This document shows, one piece after another, positions 7,220 through 16,459 of a stretch of 64,000 nucleotides of DNA. The notes beneath the pieces are model-generated. The model saw nothing but the letters and a program-made list of their open reading frames with translations, did not search any database and was not told the origin of the DNA. Position numbers and translations under genes: made by a program. Source of the stretch: Bdellovibrio sp. 22V. Lineage in GTDB: Bacteria; Bdellovibrionota; Bdellovibrionia; Bdellovibrionales; Bdellovibrionaceae. The stretch spans positions 2,542,001-2,606,000 of the forward strand of contig NZ_CP125854.1 of NCBI RefSeq assembly GCF_030169785.1, written 5' to 3'. Within the stretch, counting starts at the first letter, position 1, and every line of letters begins with the position of its first letter.

Positions 7220-8227
7220 CTAGAGACCTTTCTTCGCCATGTGAAGAGCGACGTCAACCATGCGGTTTGAGAAGCCTGTTTCGTTGTCGTACCAAGAAAG
7301 AACTTTCACCATGCGCGGACCGACAACCATTGTGGAAGCAAGATCTACGATTGAAGAGTAGGGGCTGCCGTTGAAGTCGACGCTGACAAGTTCGTTTTTC
7401 TCGACAGCCAAGACACCTTTCAAAGCACCTTGAGAAGCTGCGATCAAAGCCTCGTTCACAGATTCTTTCGTCACATCTTTTTTCGCCGTGAAAGTGAAAT
7501 CCACCAAAGACACATTTGGAGTCGGCACACGTACGGAGATGCCGTCAATGCGACCTTTCAACTCTGGCAAGACAAGGCCGACGTTTTTCGCGGCACCTGT
7601 CGTTGTCGGGATCATGCTCACAGCCGCGGCACGAGCACGGCGCAAGTCTTTGTGAGGAGCATCCAAGATTTTTTGGTCATTCGTGTAAGAGTGAACCGTC
7701 ATCATTGTTCCGTGTTCAATACCGAATGTCTCGTTCAAAACTTTCGCCAAAGGCGCCAAGCAGTTTGTCGTGCAAGACGCATTGGAAACAACTTGGTGCT
7801 TGGATGGATCGTAAGCTTCGTGATTGATACCGTACACCATTGTGATGTCAGCACCTTTTTCAGCAGGGCCAGAAACCAAAACGCGTTTCGCGCCGGCAGA
7901 GATATGTTGCATGAAATCCGCTTTGTCTTTGAAAGCGCCTGTGCACTCAAGAACGATGTCTACGCCCAAGTCCTTCCAAGGAACTTCCGCCGGATTGCGC
8001 GTTTTTGAAACTGCGATTTTTTTACCGTTAACAACAAGGTTGTGACCTTCAGTAGAAACGTCGGCATTGAATACGCCGTGAGCAGAGTCGTACTTAAGCA
8101 AGTGAGCATCACCTTCGATGCTGTCCAAAGAGTTAATTCCGACGATGTCGAGTTTTTCAAAACCCGCGCGGAAAAGAACGCGACCAATACGACCAAAACC
8201 GTTGATACCAACACGCAACTTAGACAT
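7220..8227 (-). CDS. gapA: Glyceraldehyde-3-phosphate dehydrogenase
   Basis: NAD-dependent oxidation and phosphorylation of glyceraldehyde 3-phosphate. The chosen start (MSKLRVGINGFGRIGR, 335 residues) places the Rossmann glycine motif at residues 7-13, catalytic C152 in SNASCTTNCLAPL and H179 in MTVHSYTNDQ, all at family positions. AAGGAG lies upstream of ATG 8227. First gene of gapA-pgk-tpiA. The Shine-Dalgarno sits in the loop of a short GAGTG/CACTC hairpin reaching the start codon, which could be fortuitous. Confidence 0.97.
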   Translation of the reverse strand: MSKLRVGINGFGRIGRVLFRAGFEKLDIVGINSLDSIEGDAHLLKYDSAHGVFNADVSTEGHNLVVNGKKIAVSKTRNPAEVPWKDLGVDIVLECTGAFKDKADFMQHISAGAKRVLVSGPAEKGADITMVYGINHEAYDPSKHQVVSNASCTTNCLAPLAKVLNETFGIEHGTMMTVHSYTNDQKILDAPHKDLRRARAAAVSMIPTTTGAAKNVGLVLPELKGRIDGISVRVPTPNVSLVDFTFTAKKDVTKESVNEALIAASQGALKGVLAVEKNELVSVDFNGSPYSSIVDLASTMVVGPRMVKVLSWYDNETGFSNRMVDVALHMAKKGL

Positions 8228-8273
8228 GAGTGAGCTCCTTTTTAAACCCACTCAATATCGGCCTTTGAACGCT

Positions 8274-8350: not shown

Positions 8351-9325
8351 CTAGTAGCGAGACACGCTCAATGACGGATAGTCATCATTGGAAAGCGCCT
8401 TCACAAGAATATCTGCACTTCCGCCCATAGACTCAGCGCGGATGTCGATCACCTGGATACGCTCGCCCGAGTTGAGGCTCTCAGAAACCGCTGTATCGCC
8501 CGCATAGAATGTTGGAGTTGGAGACAACTCACGGATGCGGATCTGACGATTTGACACCGTGTAGACAGAAGCTTCGTGGATTCTCACACCCGCAGACAAA
8601 GCACGAACTTCAACACGGTCCAAAGACACCGGTCTTCTAAGAGTGATACGGAACCACTCACCGCCTGAACGTCGAGTCACAGAAGAAATCTGTGTCGTAC
8701 CTTCATAGCGACCTTGCGACGAAGGTGGTGGAGGCGGAGGAACTGGACGTGAAGGACGCTCTGGACGAGGGTCAGGGCGCACATGGCCGCCACCGTTACC
8801 GAAAGAACCGCCACCACGTTGCTGGAAGCGAACTTCTGTTTCACGAACTTCATACCAAGAACCATCACGACGAGAACATGCAACACCGCGAGTTTCCTCT
8901 GTGCGGTTGCCAGCGTAGATCACACTTGTATATTCACGGCAGTATTCGCCGGTGCGATTGTTGTAACCTTCACGAGTCGAAGTGAAGCTTCCGCGCGCGC
9001 CTGTGCGTGAACCATAACGACGACCATCCCAGTCACAGCGATCACCCAAACGATCTTGCAAAGAACGGCGTTGTGCCTCTTCAAGAGCGCGACGGTCCGC
9101 CTCATCAAGGTCGGAACCGATTTTCCCACCGATCATCGTACCGGCGATCGCGCCGATGATGATGGCAGCCTTATTGCCATTTCCCTTACCGATTTGGGTT
9201 CCGATAGCGCCGCCGATAACACCACCGATGATATTACCGATGATTTCTTTGTTCGCGAACGCCGGGCTTGTATATTGTACAAGGGAAGCGACAATTACTG
9301 ATCCTAAAACGAGGTTCTTTTTCAT
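8351..9325 (-). CDS. Glycine-zipper surface-antigen-like exported protein with C-terminal beta-sandwich module
   Basis: A 324-residue exported protein (signal peptide 1-25, ending PAFA). Residues 29-72 form a glycine zipper (IIGGVIGGAIGTQIG, then GAIAGTMIGGKIG) as in 17-kDa surface antigens and other envelope proteins. Residues 125-160 (YCREYTSVIYAGN, then GVACSRRDGSWYEV) match the C-terminal part of that family. A proline linker (183-203) leads to a beta-rich module at 207-312 that is clearly related to residues 55-165 of the next two genes upstream (SGGxxxRI...SLxRxxVR...AESxGGxAxIxVxA). The envelope localisation is inferred from the glycine zipper. A TTGACA hexamer lies upstream but without a convincing -10. 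Confidence 0.75.
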   Translation of the reverse strand: MKKNLVLGSVIVASLVQYTSPAFANKEIIGNIIGGVIGGAIGTQIGKGNGNKAAIIIGAIAGTMIGGKIGSDLDEADRRALEEAQRRSLQDRLGDRCDWDGRRYGSRTGARGSFTSTREGYNNRTGEYCREYTSVIYAGNRTEETRGVACSRRDGSWYEVRETEVRFQQRGGGSFGNGGGHVRPDPRPERPSRPVPPPPPPSSQGRYEGTTQISSVTRRSGGEWFRITLRRPVSLDRVEVRALSAGVRIHEASVYTVSNRQIRIRELSPTPTFYAGDTAVSESLNSGERIQVIDIRAESMGGSADILVKALSNDDYPSLSVSRY

Positions 9326-9444
9326 GGAGACTCCTTAAATTTAAAGTCTTAGTGAATCCGTTGACCCTTTATCCAAACTCTATGCCAAAAAATCAGTGTC
9401 AAAAGGAAACCGAAGCGTCTCCTTATGACGGTTTTGCAATACAA

Positions 9445-10740
9445 TTAGTATCTGAACTTTCTTAAGTCGCTGTCTTCCCAGTTGTGTCCGAAGCGACCCG
9501 CTACTTGACCTTCCAGGAACTTCAGAACGTAGCGGCCGTTTTCTTGAATGCCCATCACTTGAACCTTCGCGTAGTCACGAGTGATATTCGTCACGACATC
9601 ACCCACGCAGAAGTTTCTTCCGCAGCCGGAAATTTTCGCTAAGTCCTCTTTACTCCAGTTATGACCGCGGCGGCCTGCCAATTCTCCATCGTAAAAATAA
9701 ACAGAGTATCTGTCGTTCTTGTCGACGCCAAGAATAAGAACCTTTCCCTGAAACTTGTCTCCGTTGAGGAGATAAGCTTTATCTTCAATACAGAATTTAC
9801 TTCCGCATTTCTTAGGCAGAGTCAGTTCATCAGAATTCCAGTTACCGCCTAAACGCCCTTTCAATTCGCCTTCCATAAATTCAATTATGACAGAGCCGTG
9901 AAATTGCACAGCGACTACTTTCACTTGCATGTTATCTCTGGATTTATTGAAAACGAGTTGTCCAACACAGTACTCTTTTGTACAGCCGGACATAAGAGAG
10001 AGATTTTCGCGCAACCAACCACCGCCGACTCTGCCGCGCAACTCTCCCGTCGTAAAGCGCAGGATGTGATTTCCGTTATTGTCAAAACCTACGACCACTG
10101 CTTTGGCGTATTCGCGGTCCATCACCATCACTTCATCGCCTTCGCGCAAATTGCGGTTGTAATTTTCCACGCGTGTTTCAGACGAAGCCGGAGGTGCCGG
10201 TGGCGTCACCGGCTTTTTTTCTTGCGGCACAAGAGTCAACTTGGGAACTTCGCGGTCCGCGACCGCTGTCACGATAATTTCCGCTTCGCCGCCGAAAGAC
10301 TCGGCAAGAATTTCGATCGCGACAACACGATCACTTTGATTTAAAACTTCCGAAGAGTTCAAAGAACCCGTCGCCAACACATTCGTACTGCTCAATTGAC
10401 GAACGGAAACTCTTTGGCCGTTGTCTGTCAGCAGAGTTGTTTGCAGCACTTTCAATTGGTTCTTGGTCACGCGCACGTCCAAACGGGAAAGAGACTGCGC
10501 CTTATTTAGATTAATTCTGTAAACCGTTCCGCCCGACTTGCGCGACATACCTGCAACGGTGACTGAGCCGATATATTGAGTTTGCACCGGAGCCGCAGGA
10601 GGTGTCGGAGTTTCGACTCTGGGAACTTCCGGAGCTGAATCACCGCCATCGAAAGGATTTGGTAAATCCACGATATCCGCATAAGCAGAACTTTGGATCA
10701 TTGTTAGAGCTGCGACAAATGTTGTGATAGATCTTTTCAT
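9445..10740 (-). CDS. Exported protein: beta-sandwich module plus four Cys-bounded SH3-like repeats
   Basis: A 431-residue protein with signal peptide 1-21 (ending AYA) and mature start DIVDLPNP, nearly identical to the neighbour at 10761. Residues 55-165 are the beta-sandwich module shared with both neighbours. After a Pro/Lys linker come four repeats of about 60 residues (198-257, 258-317, 318-377, 378-431) of pattern FC-V/I-G-D...V.V.GI..NGRY.L.F.EGEL.GR.G.NW..ddL, with a Cys pair near each boundary. The beta-rich repeats resemble SH3-like barrels. Probable extracellular or envelope binding protein; the ligand is unknown. It follows the gene at 10761 by 20 bp. Confidence 0.7.
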   Translation of the reverse strand: MKRSITTFVAALTMIQSSAYADIVDLPNPFDGGDSAPEVPRVETPTPPAAPVQTQYIGSVTVAGMSRKSGGTVYRINLNKAQSLSRLDVRVTKNQLKVLQTTLLTDNGQRVSVRQLSSTNVLATGSLNSSEVLNQSDRVVAIEILAESFGGEAEIIVTAVADREVPKLTLVPQEKKPVTPPAPPASSETRVENYNRNLREGDEVMVMDREYAKAVVVGFDNNGNHILRFTTGELRGRVGGGWLRENLSLMSGCTKEYCVGQLVFNKSRDNMQVKVVAVQFHGSVIIEFMEGELKGRLGGNWNSDELTLPKKCGSKFCIEDKAYLLNGDKFQGKVLILGVDKNDRYSVYFYDGELAGRRGHNWSKEDLAKISGCGRNFCVGDVVTNITRDYAKVQVMGIQENGRYVLKFLEGQVAGRFGHNWEDSDLRKFRY

Positions 10741-10760
10741 TTTCCGAAACCTTTCTTCAC

Positions 10761-12308
10761 TTAACGTACAAGTCTTGCCAGAGAAGATACATCGAACCAG
10801 GTGTCGTAATAGCCGTTCCGGACGACCAACGCTTTGCCGTTTGCAAAAAGCTCGACAACACGACCACTTGTATTTTGATAGATAACCGTACTGCCAAGAC
10901 AGATTCCCGAACGAGAGTCACACTTAACAGCAAGAGAAACCGATCCTACGTCCACCATGGTGTCGTAGTAACCGTTTCTTTGTAAAAGAGCTTTGCCGTT
11001 GGTGAAGACATCCGCAATCACGCCGATAGTTCCTGAAAGATACACACGAGCGCCCGTGCAGACTCCTTGAACACACTTCGTTCTTTTCGCCAAACTGTCA
11101 GCGTCAACAGACGTGTCATAGTAGCCGTCGCGAACAAGAAGAACCTTATTGCCATAAATGGCTCTTGCCACACCGATGGTTCCTGAATGGTAAACAACAT
11201 CGCCTTCACAGATGACACCGCGAGAGTCACAAGACGTTTTAACACCAAGCGCTTTCGTATCTGCAAATGAATCGTAATAACCGTCTCTCACAATAAGGGC
11301 TTTGCTATTGTCATAGACGGCGACCGCGACACCGGCAACGCCTTGGTAAAGAACCTTGGCGCCAGCACAGACATTACCGACACACGCGACCTTTTTGCCG
11401 ACATTTCGCACGTCAGCGAACGAGTCGTAGTATCCATCTCTTTGCAGCAAGATTTTACCATTCGCAAAAACTCGGAGCGCCGTTCCCGCAGAGTTGGAAT
11501 ATTCTACTCCGTCTCCCGCGCAAATTCTTTCATAGCATCTGACAGATTTAGATAAATCACGGACCTGCACATTTGTATCATAGTATCCATCGCGCACTAA
11601 AAGCGCTTGCCCGTTAGAGTAAACGCCTCTCACCGTGCCCACGGAATTTTGATAGTAAACAACGTCGCCCGAGCGAATGACGCTGTCCTCACGTGGATTA
11701 TAAACGGGCGGGCGGCTTGGTCCCGGAGGAGCCGGTGGAGTTGGACGCTGCGGTTGCGTCGGCACCTCGGGCTTTGTTGGAGTCACGACTTGTTGTTCAC
11801 GCAAAGTCAGTTTTGGCACTTCACGGTCGGCAACGACCGTCACAAGAATATCGGCTTCGCCACCGTAAGATTCAGCGACCAATTCAATACGCGCCACGCG
11901 GTCGCTTTGATTTAAAGATTCAGAAGAAAAAACAGAACCCGTGTTCAAAACATCCGTATTCGTCAATTGACGAACGCTGACTTTTTGTCCCGCATCCGTA
12001 ATAAGCGCTGTTTGCAGGATCTTAAGACGATTCTTTGTAACACGAATATCTAAACGTTGCAGAGAGAGGGCTTGTTTGAGATCGATGATATAAAGAGTCC
12101 CGCCGGATTTTCTCGACATCGCACTTATAGAGACGGAACCCACGAATTGAGTTTGTTGTTGCTCTGGACCTGGCGCTGGAGGCACAGGCGACGGCGTGAC
12201 TTCCCCGTCCCCAAAGTCTCCGGGATTGGGAAGGTCCATAATATCCGCATACGCGGGATTCTGTAATAATGTAGTAGCCGCGAGAACACTCGCCATCCAA
12301 CGTTTCAT
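10761..12308 (-). CDS. Exported protein: beta-sandwich module plus six RDGYYD repeats
   Basis: A 515-residue protein with signal peptide 1-21 (ending AYA) and mature start DIMDLPNP. Residues 54-165 are the shared beta-sandwich module, followed by a Pro-rich linker (about 173-203) and six tandem repeats of about 50 residues from residue 210 to the end. Each repeat reads C.GD.V.Y....G....VF.NGKALL.RDGYYD...DV..L.K; the RDGYYD or RNGYYD box occurs six times, and Cys pairs flank the units. Likely a string of small beta barrels displayed outside the inner membrane. Heads a minus-strand unit with the gene at 9445; TAGGAG lies upstream of its ATG. Function unknown. Confidence 0.7.
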   Translation of the reverse strand: MKRWMASVLAATTLLQNPAYADIMDLPNPGDFGDGEVTPSPVPPAPGPEQQQTQFVGSVSISAMSRKSGGTLYIIDLKQALSLQRLDIRVTKNRLKILQTALITDAGQKVSVRQLTNTDVLNTGSVFSSESLNQSDRVARIELVAESYGGEADILVTVVADREVPKLTLREQQVVTPTKPEVPTQPQRPTPPAPPGPSRPPVYNPREDSVIRSGDVVYYQNSVGTVRGVYSNGQALLVRDGYYDTNVQVRDLSKSVRCYERICAGDGVEYSNSAGTALRVFANGKILLQRDGYYDSFADVRNVGKKVACVGNVCAGAKVLYQGVAGVAVAVYDNSKALIVRDGYYDSFADTKALGVKTSCDSRGVICEGDVVYHSGTIGVARAIYGNKVLLVRDGYYDTSVDADSLAKRTKCVQGVCTGARVYLSGTIGVIADVFTNGKALLQRNGYYDTMVDVGSVSLAVKCDSRSGICLGSTVIYQNTSGRVVELFANGKALVVRNGYYDTWFDVSSLARLVR

Positions 12309-12596: not shown

Positions 12597-14627
12597 ATGA
12601 AGCGACTTTTAGTCTCTCAAACACTCATTACGGCATTGTTTTTCATCGAACCAGCGCAAGCGACAACAGTGCCGGTTTTGAAGTCTCTATTGCCTCATGG
12701 GAAAATCACTTCCAAAAATACGGCGACTCTTTATCTAAACTCATCCGAAAATGTCGTCTGTCGCTTCTCAACAAAGAATGAGTCCTTCGTAAAAATGCCG
12801 TCTCAATTTAAAACAACGGGCACGAAAACTCATGCGCACGGACTTTCGGGGCTGGAACCCAATAAGGCCTATTCTTACTTCATTGCCTGTCAATCGCCGA
12901 CAAGCAAGAAAGTCAGCTCCACCGGCGTCGTCAACTTCATCACCGCTGCAGCTCCCGTCACGTTGTCCTCTTTGGCTCCAAACGGTGCAGTCACTACTTA
13001 CGATACGGCCCGTTTAAGTTTGACGACTTCCGAGAAAGCAATTTGCCGCTACTCTAGCACGCAACAGACATTTGATAAAATGACGTCCGAGTTTAAATCC
13101 ACGGGAAGCGCTTCTCACCTTCACGAACTTACGGGATTACTTCCCAAGACTGCTTACACCTATTATGTCGCCTGCGAAAGCACGCAATCTAAAGTGCAAA
13201 GCTCTATTGGACAAATCAGCTTTACGACGGCCGATGCTTCCCTTTTATACTCTGGCTGGTTACAGCTTCCAGCAAGAGCCTTCCTGAACAATCCGGGCTC
13301 CACTTATAACGCCGCTAAGTCCTGCACCCTTTACAAATTCTATACGTCTCACCCAGGAATGAATTCGATCATCAGCGAAAGTTTCAGCAAGGAAGCGACA
13401 AAAAGTCCTGCCGCATGCAGGGCTTTTCTTGAAAAACATTATCTCTCGCACGAGTCCTGTGGCCTGCCGGAGATCGACAATAAATATTGGTCTGTCATCG
13501 GTGTTCTGAAAGACTCCGCCGACGAGAAGCTTATTTTTAATACTTCAGGTGGCATTAAAAATGTTTCGCTTCAACAAGGCAGCAGCGTCATTGTGTTGCC
13601 GGCCGCTCAGTGCGCGACCGCAAGCTACTTCAGTAAAACCAAAGGCGTTCTGTGGTCCAAAGTAGGATCTTGCAACTACGCGCAGACGAAGTTTTGTGTG
13701 AATCCAAACGTTCCCTTATTATCACAGTCAGCACCTAAACTGCCTGAGTTTCTGGCTAAAGCCACAGGTATTAGCTCCATTAAAAGAGATATGGGATGGT
13801 GTGCGGCCGTTGCGTTAACAATGTCCTCTTTGGGAGCACTTCATTCTTCTCCGGCGGAAATCGCGCAAGATTCTTTCTTATGGAAAAGCAATTTGCCAAC
13901 AGCGGCGGAAGGCACCTCCGTCACGGATATGAATGAAAGAACCATGTTGTTCGCGAATCTGATTCACAAGATAGGCAATGTTATCGGCACCAACTGGGCA
14001 AAAGGCGGCACGACGACGGAACGAGGTATCGCGAGTTTGTACAGTCGCTTAGATCCGTCGATCCGCAATTTGAACGGAATTTATTATGACGGCGAAGTCC
14101 TTAGACGAGAATTTAAAATTCTGACTGACGAATGGTCCAAAGAAGCCTTGGTTCAAAACCTCACTGTCGGAAACAACGTGAACTTTGCCCGGGGGCACGC
14201 GATTATCCGCGATTGTTATCCGCAAAAAGTTGTGAAGGTAAAATCCGACGACAAGCGAGATTATTGGGAGGCCTCCGGCTACCAGTGTACATGGAAAAAA
14301 TCGGCACAAACTCACGCCCTGAGCGTAAACGGTCTTGAAGAAGACTATGTGAAAATTTATGACCCTTGGGGAAAAACCTACAATCTTCGGGTTCTGCAAA
14401 AAACGGACGTTCCGAACTTAAATATGAAAGTCGCACTCGCAATTCCTGTCGGAGCCGAAGGATATTTCAGAGACACCGGCTTAATGACCGACTCGATGGA
14501 AGACGTGGTGCAAAAGACCGTCCTCCCCAAAGGCGCACCTCAACCTGTTTCGCGCAGAGTGGTCAATTACTACTACATCGCGATTTACGGTTATCAGACG
14601 GGCATCGTTGGGAAACTTAAAAGATAA
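12597..14627 (+). CDS. Secreted two-Fn3 protein with candidate papain-like (C39-type) cysteine peptidase domain
   Basis: A 676-residue protein with a signal peptide (1-22, ending AQA). Residues 25-118 and 119-213 are two similar Fn3-like beta domains (each with L.P.G......TA.L....SE...CR.S and a closing L.GL.P...Y.Y..AC). A Cys-rich region (240-370) follows. The C-terminal part has C402 in MGWCAAVALTM preceded by Asp-Met, H534 in RGHAIIRDC, then H573 in THALSVNGL and D589 in KIYDPWGK. The Cys helix plus HAxxVNG....V.DPWG layout is that of C39/papain-like peptidases. Peptidase activity is inferred, not shown. A 17-residue-codon-free gap of 24 bp separates it from the next gene. Confidence 0.65.
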   Translation: MKRLLVSQTLITALFFIEPAQATTVPVLKSLLPHGKITSKNTATLYLNSSENVVCRFSTKNESFVKMPSQFKTTGTKTHAHGLSGLEPNKAYSYFIACQSPTSKKVSSTGVVNFITAAAPVTLSSLAPNGAVTTYDTARLSLTTSEKAICRYSSTQQTFDKMTSEFKSTGSASHLHELTGLLPKTAYTYYVACESTQSKVQSSIGQISFTTADASLLYSGWLQLPARAFLNNPGSTYNAAKSCTLYKFYTSHPGMNSIISESFSKEATKSPAACRAFLEKHYLSHESCGLPEIDNKYWSVIGVLKDSADEKLIFNTSGGIKNVSLQQGSSVIVLPAAQCATASYFSKTKGVLWSKVGSCNYAQTKFCVNPNVPLLSQSAPKLPEFLAKATGISSIKRDMGWCAAVALTMSSLGALHSSPAEIAQDSFLWKSNLPTAAEGTSVTDMNERTMLFANLIHKIGNVIGTNWAKGGTTTERGIASLYSRLDPSIRNLNGIYYDGEVLRREFKILTDEWSKEALVQNLTVGNNVNFARGHAIIRDCYPQKVVKVKSDDKRDYWEASGYQCTWKKSAQTHALSVNGLEEDYVKIYDPWGKTYNLRVLQKTDVPNLNMKVALAIPVGAEGYFRDTGLMTDSMEDVVQKTVLPKGAPQPVSRRVVNYYYIAIYGYQTGIVGKLKR

Positions 14628-15577: not shown

Positions 15578-16459
15578 ATGAAAATACGGTCGTTTTCTTT
15601 GCTCTCTGCGTGTCTTTTCCTTTCAGCGTGTTCTCCTGACATTGCAACACATCTGAATCCTCATTCTTCCGACAATGCCGGTATTATTGGCGGGACTCGC
15701 GTGGAAGAGCGAAGCAGTCCCGCAGCCAGAAGCGTGGTGCTTATCGAAATGACGAATGCCAGCGGATTTCCTTTAGGGTTTTGCAGCGCTACTTTGATCG
15801 GTCGAAATACCGTCCTGACGGCAGGTCACTGCTTCGACAAAACTCGCATCCCAAAACTTGCGGGCTTTAACGTCGTCTTCACCAATGACTATCAATCGTT
15901 CTCCAAAGATGAACGCCGCAAGGGCAAAGCGCATATGGTTCACCCCGATTACAACAGCACTAAAAAGTTCTTTGATCATGATTTGGCGGTCGCGGTTTTC
16001 CAGGGACCTCTGCCAAAAGATTACGAGCCGGTCGCCTATGATGAAGACGTCAACGCGAAATACGCCGGCGACAAAGTGTACGTTTATGGTTACGGCCGCT
16101 CGCAGGATTATAGCGGCAAGAAAACCGAACTCACTTATCTGCACATCGGTCAGTTGCATCGCGGAGTCATGCAAATTGAAGGAACTTACGATCGTTTCCC
16201 AGATCGCTATTGGACAAACCATCAAATCCCGACATTTATTTGCCAGGGCGACTCCGGAGGTCCGCAGTTCCGTCACGAGAATGGCGAGTTAAAATTGATC
16301 GGTGTAAACTCCGCCGTCTATGGACCGGAGTTGCCTAATGGACTCACAAGCTGCAAGGGTATTGCGCAGGCGACGAAAGTGGCTCCGTTTGCGGAGTGGA
16401 TTAAATCCGTGCGCTACACTCTTACCACTGAATTTTCGGAAACATTTTTAGAGCATTAA
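15578..16459 (+). CDS. Trypsin-like serine protease lipoprotein
   Basis: A 293-residue S1-family (chymotrypsin fold) serine endopeptidase. The signal peptide ends in a lipobox (LSAC) with C18 as the lipidation site. The IIGG sequence at residues 36-39 is the classical zymogen cleavage site that creates the new N-terminus. The triad is complete: H84 in LTAGHC, D135 in HDLAVAV and S226 in GDSGGPQ. It is probably membrane-tethered facing the periplasm or outside, and activated by proteolysis. AAGGAG precedes ATG 15578 but lies in a hairpin. The 3' end overlaps the convergent tatD gene by 38 bp. Confidence 0.92.
   Translation: MKIRSFSLLSACLFLSACSPDIATHLNPHSSDNAGIIGGTRVEERSSPAARSVVLIEMTNASGFPLGFCSATLIGRNTVLTAGHCFDKTRIPKLAGFNVVFTNDYQSFSKDERRKGKAHMVHPDYNSTKKFFDHDLAVAVFQGPLPKDYEPVAYDEDVNAKYAGDKVYVYGYGRSQDYSGKKTELTYLHIGQLHRGVMQIEGTYDRFPDRYWTNHQIPTFICQGDSGGPQFRHENGELKLIGVNSAVYGPELPNGLTSCKGIAQATKVAPFAEWIKSVRYTLTTEFSETFLEH

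Follow-up and report, generated by a model that had tools for sequence, protein, structure and literature searches.

We analysed a 64,000-nt stretch of the genome of Bdellovibrio sp. 22V (NZ_CP125854.1, positions 2,542,001-2,606,000; hereafter the window, whose positions serve as coordinates below), and in particular three neighbouring genes which an earlier note on this DNA had described as carrying one module recombined with three different partner architectures. All three genes, and every feature given for them, lie on the minus strand, directly upstream of gap-pgk-tpi. The anchor begins with gap (GAPDH; 7220..8251, minus strand, named from sequence), which is outside the module family. Immediately beside gap is an open reading frame (ORF) for a 324-aa glycine-zipper protein, predicted to be exported (8351..9325). 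It is followed by ORFs for a 431-aa protein (9445..10740) and a 515-aa protein (10761..12308), each consisting of a signal peptide, a short motif at the mature N-terminus, the module, a Pro-rich linker and a row of predicted SH3-like barrels, four in the former and six in the latter. The two repeat genes are spaced by 20 bases, and are therefore probably co-transcribed; promoter and terminator patterns are no more frequent at the locus than in shuffles.

A Pfam beta-sandwich is common to the three proteins

The common module is PF18820 (BD_b_sandwich, Bdellovibrio Beta-sandwich), which scores far above its curated cut-off of 26.1 bits in all three proteins (E-values 2e-26 to 9e-40). The domain is C-terminal in the 324-aa protein (8363..8722, residues 202-321; 93 bits, E 2e-26), and N-terminal in the 431-aa protein (10222..10593, residues 50-173; 127 bits, E 5e-37) and the 515-aa protein (11784..12161, residues 50-175; 136 bits, E 9e-40), that is, exactly in the arrangement first described. 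The earlier note had assigned the module no function, and none was found for the Pfam family; the module itself, however, is not new, since it is already a named domain. A fourth copy in this genome, away from the locus, belongs to a 223-aa low-complexity protein. At the DNA level, the modules of the two repeat genes are 69% identical, and recent gene conversion between them is accordingly rejected; judged from sequence, these two copies are old.

Structural models of the two repeat proteins were obtained with AlphaFold2, at a mean predicted local distance difference test (pLDDT) of 84 for the 515-aa protein and 80 for the 431-aa protein. In both models residues ~55-171 form a beta-sandwich (mostly pLDDT 80-94 across the module of the 515-aa protein), followed by a disordered Pro-rich linker and then by tandem small barrels. 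The sandwich prediction covers the modules of these two proteins. The predicted fold resembles galactose-binding-like/jelly-roll domains, namely those of PAPP-A, the C-terminal sandwich of GH29 fucosidase, AlgX, CBM32 and CBM29 (Z ~7.5-9.6 over 93-106 residues), and the module may be a sandwich of this type, although other jelly-roll folds are among the matches and common arrangements also reach this level. Comparison with carbohydrate-binding sandwich families gave no convincing match at the sequence level, and a sequence search of solved structures with the module profile and with each repeat protein returned no relative.

The glycine zipper recognised earlier in the 324-aa protein is a 2TM segment of PF05433 (9116..9238, residues 30-70; 29.8 bits, cut-off 24.2). 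A 17-kDa surface antigen-like segment, PF16998 (8852..9010, residues 106-158), scores 25.8 bits, just below the cut-off of 26.6. The protein thus shares a glycine zipper with the Rickettsia 17-kDa surface antigen and with SlyB-like glycine-zipper outer-membrane proteins; unlike the surface antigen, it has no lipobox cysteine and carries PF18820. The only clear matches in PHROG are to its glycine-zipper region.

A common predicted fold for both repeat types

The 431-aa protein contains ~55-residue repeats of the EGELxGRxGxNW type (9448..10164), and the 515-aa protein ~46-residue RDGYYD repeats (10764..11675). Whole-genome searches with repeat profiles found exactly four of the former (E 2e-21 to 2e-13) and exactly six of the latter (E 1e-17 to 4e-13), the numbers originally counted, and no others. 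In the AlphaFold2 models (pLDDT mostly 85-97 in the six-repeat array) both types are predicted to fold as SH3-like barrels with their elements in the same order, a short helix being placed between the fourth and fifth of five strands. Foldseek matches of the six-barrel array include Spt5 KOW, UBE2O and MIB1 (Mind bomb REP) (E 5e-7); those of the four-barrel array are of the KOW/agenet/Tudor type (E 3e-6); and the matches of the two proteins taken together also name SETDB1 Tudor, agenet and kin17 domains. Repeat fold and tandem arrangement are thus predicted to be like those of the barrel arrays of Spt5, UBE2O, MIB1 REP, SETDB1 and AGDP3. No SH3, KOW or Tudor Pfam model exceeds its cut-off in the window proteins. 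Related array proteins do reach Pfam DUF4537 (E 1.4e-9), SH3_15 (E 7e-6), UBE2O SH3-C and KOW6, and the array profile, run against solved structures, gave only a 0.02 match, to PsaE, itself SH3-like.

The repeat sequences of the two proteins do not match each other by BLAST. The profile of the ~55-residue repeats matches individual repeat types with a probability of 3-51%; against all other repeat types pooled, the alignment covers the profile end to end at a probability of 90% (E 1.6e-6 for a single comparison), with controls (the module, helical tails and reversed repeats) below 5%. On these models and profiles, we conclude that the two repeat types are homologous and share one predicted SH3-like (KOW/Tudor/agenet-type) fold, the homology being distant given the weak matches to single types. 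The three partner architectures proposed earlier are therefore two: the distinction between glycine zipper and repeats stands, but that between the two repeat types does not. That is, structure prediction returned a sandwich for the module of both repeat proteins, as envisaged, but a single fold for their barrels.

A C-x(n)-C pair lies between successive barrels, with five pairs in the six-barrel protein (Cys count 10 in the array) and three in the four-barrel protein (Cys count 6), which suggests disulfide stapling in an oxidising compartment. The predicted tails are basic, with isoelectric points of 8.6-8.9. Outside the genus, the same SH3-like barrels are found C-terminally on exported PF18626 (Gln_deamidase_2) glutaminase-like enzymes (L141:1988-3313, L149:2260-3594 and L151:2979-4658).

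Putative export signals and a motif at the mature N-terminus

All three proteins begin with what looks, by eye, like a signal peptide with A-x-A at its end. In the repeat proteins this stretch is followed by DIVDLPNP (431 aa) and DIMDLPNP (515 aa), with the DLPNP pattern at 10654..10668 and 12222..12236, respectively, and the two proteins are 62.6% identical across their N-terminal 171 residues; they do share a signal peptide and mature start, as had been noticed. Of five pattern matches in this genome, one was not resolved, and no further exported protein with DLPNP was recognised. Across the genus, xDLP (the next residue being G, N, D or one of a few others) comes after the signal peptide in every SH3-array module protein; it occurs in 0/23 glycine-zipper (GZ) and 0/11 low-complexity (LC) proteins. 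The HEL1-like chimera L064 also has it. Two Bdellovibrio array proteins, L154:2206-3600 and L155:1076-2724, combine a DLP start with SH3-like barrels but lack PF18820; the motif is therefore linked to the array rather than to the sandwich. Export to an oxidising compartment is predicted on the basis of signal peptides and paired cysteines; the support for export as such, which the earlier note had also assumed, comes from signal peptides read by eye.

The module family in relatives

Among 369 genomes of the phylum, 24 of them from the genus of the window, PF18820 occurs in 29: in 23 of the 24 genus genomes, at 1-8 copies each, and in 6 others. The module occurs mainly in a single genus, with few occurrences in the rest of the phylum. 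A module gene stands beside gap in all 23 module-bearing genus genomes, and in 22 of these it is of the glycine-zipper type; copy number and position support the local amplification suggested earlier. The number of arrays varies, to the point of zero at the locus in several genomes; the genome with eight module copies, G133, has three SH3-array proteins among them. The relatives named by a genome-wide DNA-pattern scan are all Bdellovibrio, plus one doubtful half match in a planctomycete metagenome-assembled genome (L117).

Partners of further kinds occur in the wider family beyond the window: a helical domain in 26 proteins, repeats of the SYNS/AYSS and W-rich kinds, and stretches of low complexity. 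The module is C-terminal in the low-complexity types and in most glycine-zipper types. The 324-aa protein is the most conserved family member, with a module that is 100% identical in amino acids at a synonymous divergence (dS) of 0.19-0.38.

Evidence that C-terminal parts have been exchanged

Several repeat types fail to group on a tree of the modules, which was built from 105 rows and only 116 columns. Forcing the GYYD modules together is rejected by the approximately unbiased test (p-AU 6.5e-4), as is forcing together the GGNW modules (p-AU 0.004); repeat labels were set from motifs before the tree was made, and these two types were chosen for the test after seeing it, so that the p values are optimistic. 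One array gene of G142 has an N-terminal half that is 75-76% identical to a DDDDGK protein at the same locus in G135 and G138, and only 47% identical to those of the window and G153 GYYD proteins. Its tail is 26-30% identical to the G135 and G138 tails, and 43-47% identical to the GYYD tails of the window and G153.

A step in silent divergence is seen as well. In the GYSGS ortholog pair of G135 and G138, 16/100 fourfold silent sites differ N-terminally versus 56/120 in the tail (p=1.4e-6, uncorrected, as are all p values for the nine pairs compared), and silent divergence rises from 0.16 to 0.47 at a step near residue 220, near the linker. The SYNS and GYSES pairs shift in the same direction, and the controls (HEL1, and DDDDGK of G133/G136) show no shift. 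These steps point to recombination rather than to fast protein evolution, although the same pattern would arise if the front half had been homogenised. In addition, L064 is a chimera in which an array-type N-terminus is followed by a tail of the HEL1 type. Taken together, the tree discordance, the swap at the G142 slot, the silent-site step and the L064 chimera support exchange of the C-terminal part by recombination, and thus the domain shuffling that had been proposed.

Possible roles of the locus

A predatory bacterium has to recognise and handle a wide range of prey, and the recognition factors known so far, the MAT fibres and the MIDAS adhesin, may not be the full set. The interpretation that we prefer, tentatively and with somewhat less than even confidence, is that the locus encodes an accessory set of exported, multivalent mosaic binding proteins in which a conserved tether is combined with an exchangeable recognition array. 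On the computational evidence, each array protein comprises a conserved N-terminal unit (the PF18820 sandwich plus xDLP), a Pro-rich linker and an exchangeable C-terminal row of SH3-like barrels. The sandwich, with its carbohydrate-binding-type fold, and the DLP motif would tether the protein to a polymer of the envelope or surface, and the barrel rows would bind a polymer or protein multivalently. A protein with another array would have a different binding target, probably located on prey or on a cell wall under remodelling; the arrays may bind prey or wall polymers. In the glycine-zipper member, this tether would take a constant form embedded in the membrane. By analogy, the C-terminal placement of the barrels on PF18626 enzymes, which is that of targeting domains, argues for a role in targeting or binding.

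The MAT fibres of B. bacteriovorus have near-identical N-terminal parts, with 75% identity between Bd2133 and Bd1334, and exchanged C-terminal recognition ends (PMC10769870). They are trimeric fibres with beta-helix regions, of ~1000-1150 residues for the two compared (PMC10769870). The logic of a constant front and exchanged C-terminal ends is thus alike; the window array proteins, however, have 431-515 residues, consist of a sandwich and SH3-like barrels, and are modelled without a beta-helix. No description of these genes, the exchangeable partners, the array locus or the DLP motif was found in the literature searched. The one mention of the domain that we found is Bd2715, a module protein that is strongly up at prey exit (4 h), with a log2 fold change of 2.66 (PMC12546842). 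At a guess from gene numbering, it may be the low-complexity HD100 copy near 2.638 Mb.

Several observations weigh against a recognition role. A fold match at Z 8-9.6 is no proof that a carbohydrate is bound, as common arrangements reach such scores. The 324-aa protein has no lipobox; by eye, its signal peptide ends AFA, with NKE following and no Cys. Neither ligand, localisation or mutant data for these genes nor expression of the array proteins themselves was found in the literature searched. The tails are under constraint, with dN/dS (non-synonymous to synonymous divergence) of ~0.04-0.31, and there is therefore no sign of an arms race; positive selection on the tails is unsupported.

The main alternative, which we regard as a real possibility if a less probable one, is that these proteins have a structural place in the envelope of the predator itself, for example as periplasmic spacers or wall-binding proteins, with near-neutral array exchange unrelated to prey. 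The near-constant presence of the glycine-zipper member beside gap, the identity of its module, the freely varying number of arrays and the lack of positive selection are all in line with this. However, array types have been exchanged repeatedly and C-terminally, as in recognition proteins, and related barrels sit on exported enzymes elsewhere.

The recognition interpretation can also be put in a stronger form, which we consider unlikely though not far-fetched: a second, non-fibre recognition repertoire of exported Tudor/KOW-like arrays, swapped by recombination at a dedicated site beside gap, would set prey or substrate specificity in parallel to the MAT fibres, and DLP[GN] would be a new sorting or docking motif of the mature N-terminus. 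If true, KOW/Tudor-like barrels, best known from eukaryotic nuclear proteins, would be used outside the cell. The family is kept across the genus, its recombination history is readable and the gene set is small.

It is improbable that the barrels act like eukaryotic KOW/Tudor/UBE2O domains, binding peptides or nucleic acid, in proteins that enter the prey cell and attach to its proteins, RNA or DNA. The top fold matches are indeed to such domains, and the predicted tails are basic. Against this, the corresponding KOW and Tudor Pfam models stay below cut-off in the window proteins, SH3-like barrels are too generic for transfer of function, and the inter-barrel Cys pairs point to an oxidising compartment. 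Finally, that the two repeat types are unrelated and the three proteins resemble each other through ordinary paralogy of one domain, without exchange, fits the absent BLAST match and the low single-type probabilities, but is very improbable given the common strand order with its short helix before the last strand, the pooled profile match with its low controls, the tree discordance and the silent-site breakpoint.

Additional observations

Candidate origins in mobile elements or defence were rejected: plasmids, phages and viral contigs gave no match, and PADLOC none for a defence system. Matches in a viral structure library were only weak and scattered. In a distant family, L108:2580-3836 encodes a module protein with six nearly identical ~38-residue CNSEDLYQGRTY repeats. 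The GYSES array protein of G133 (L036:4561-6174) is 16 residues shorter than its G136 ortholog (L041) and ends inside the last barrel.

The divergent neighbour of the locus in the window (12597-14627, plus strand) encodes an exported 676-aa protein with two fibronectin/purple-acid-phosphatase-N-like domains just below the Pfam cut-off. Read by eye, this protein also has a Cys-peptidase-like segment, GWCAAVALTM. Among the relatives fetched, the gene was not seen beside the array locus. Also near the array, an ORF at 15578-16459 encodes an exported trypsin-like serine protease with an apparent lipobox (LSAC), read by eye.

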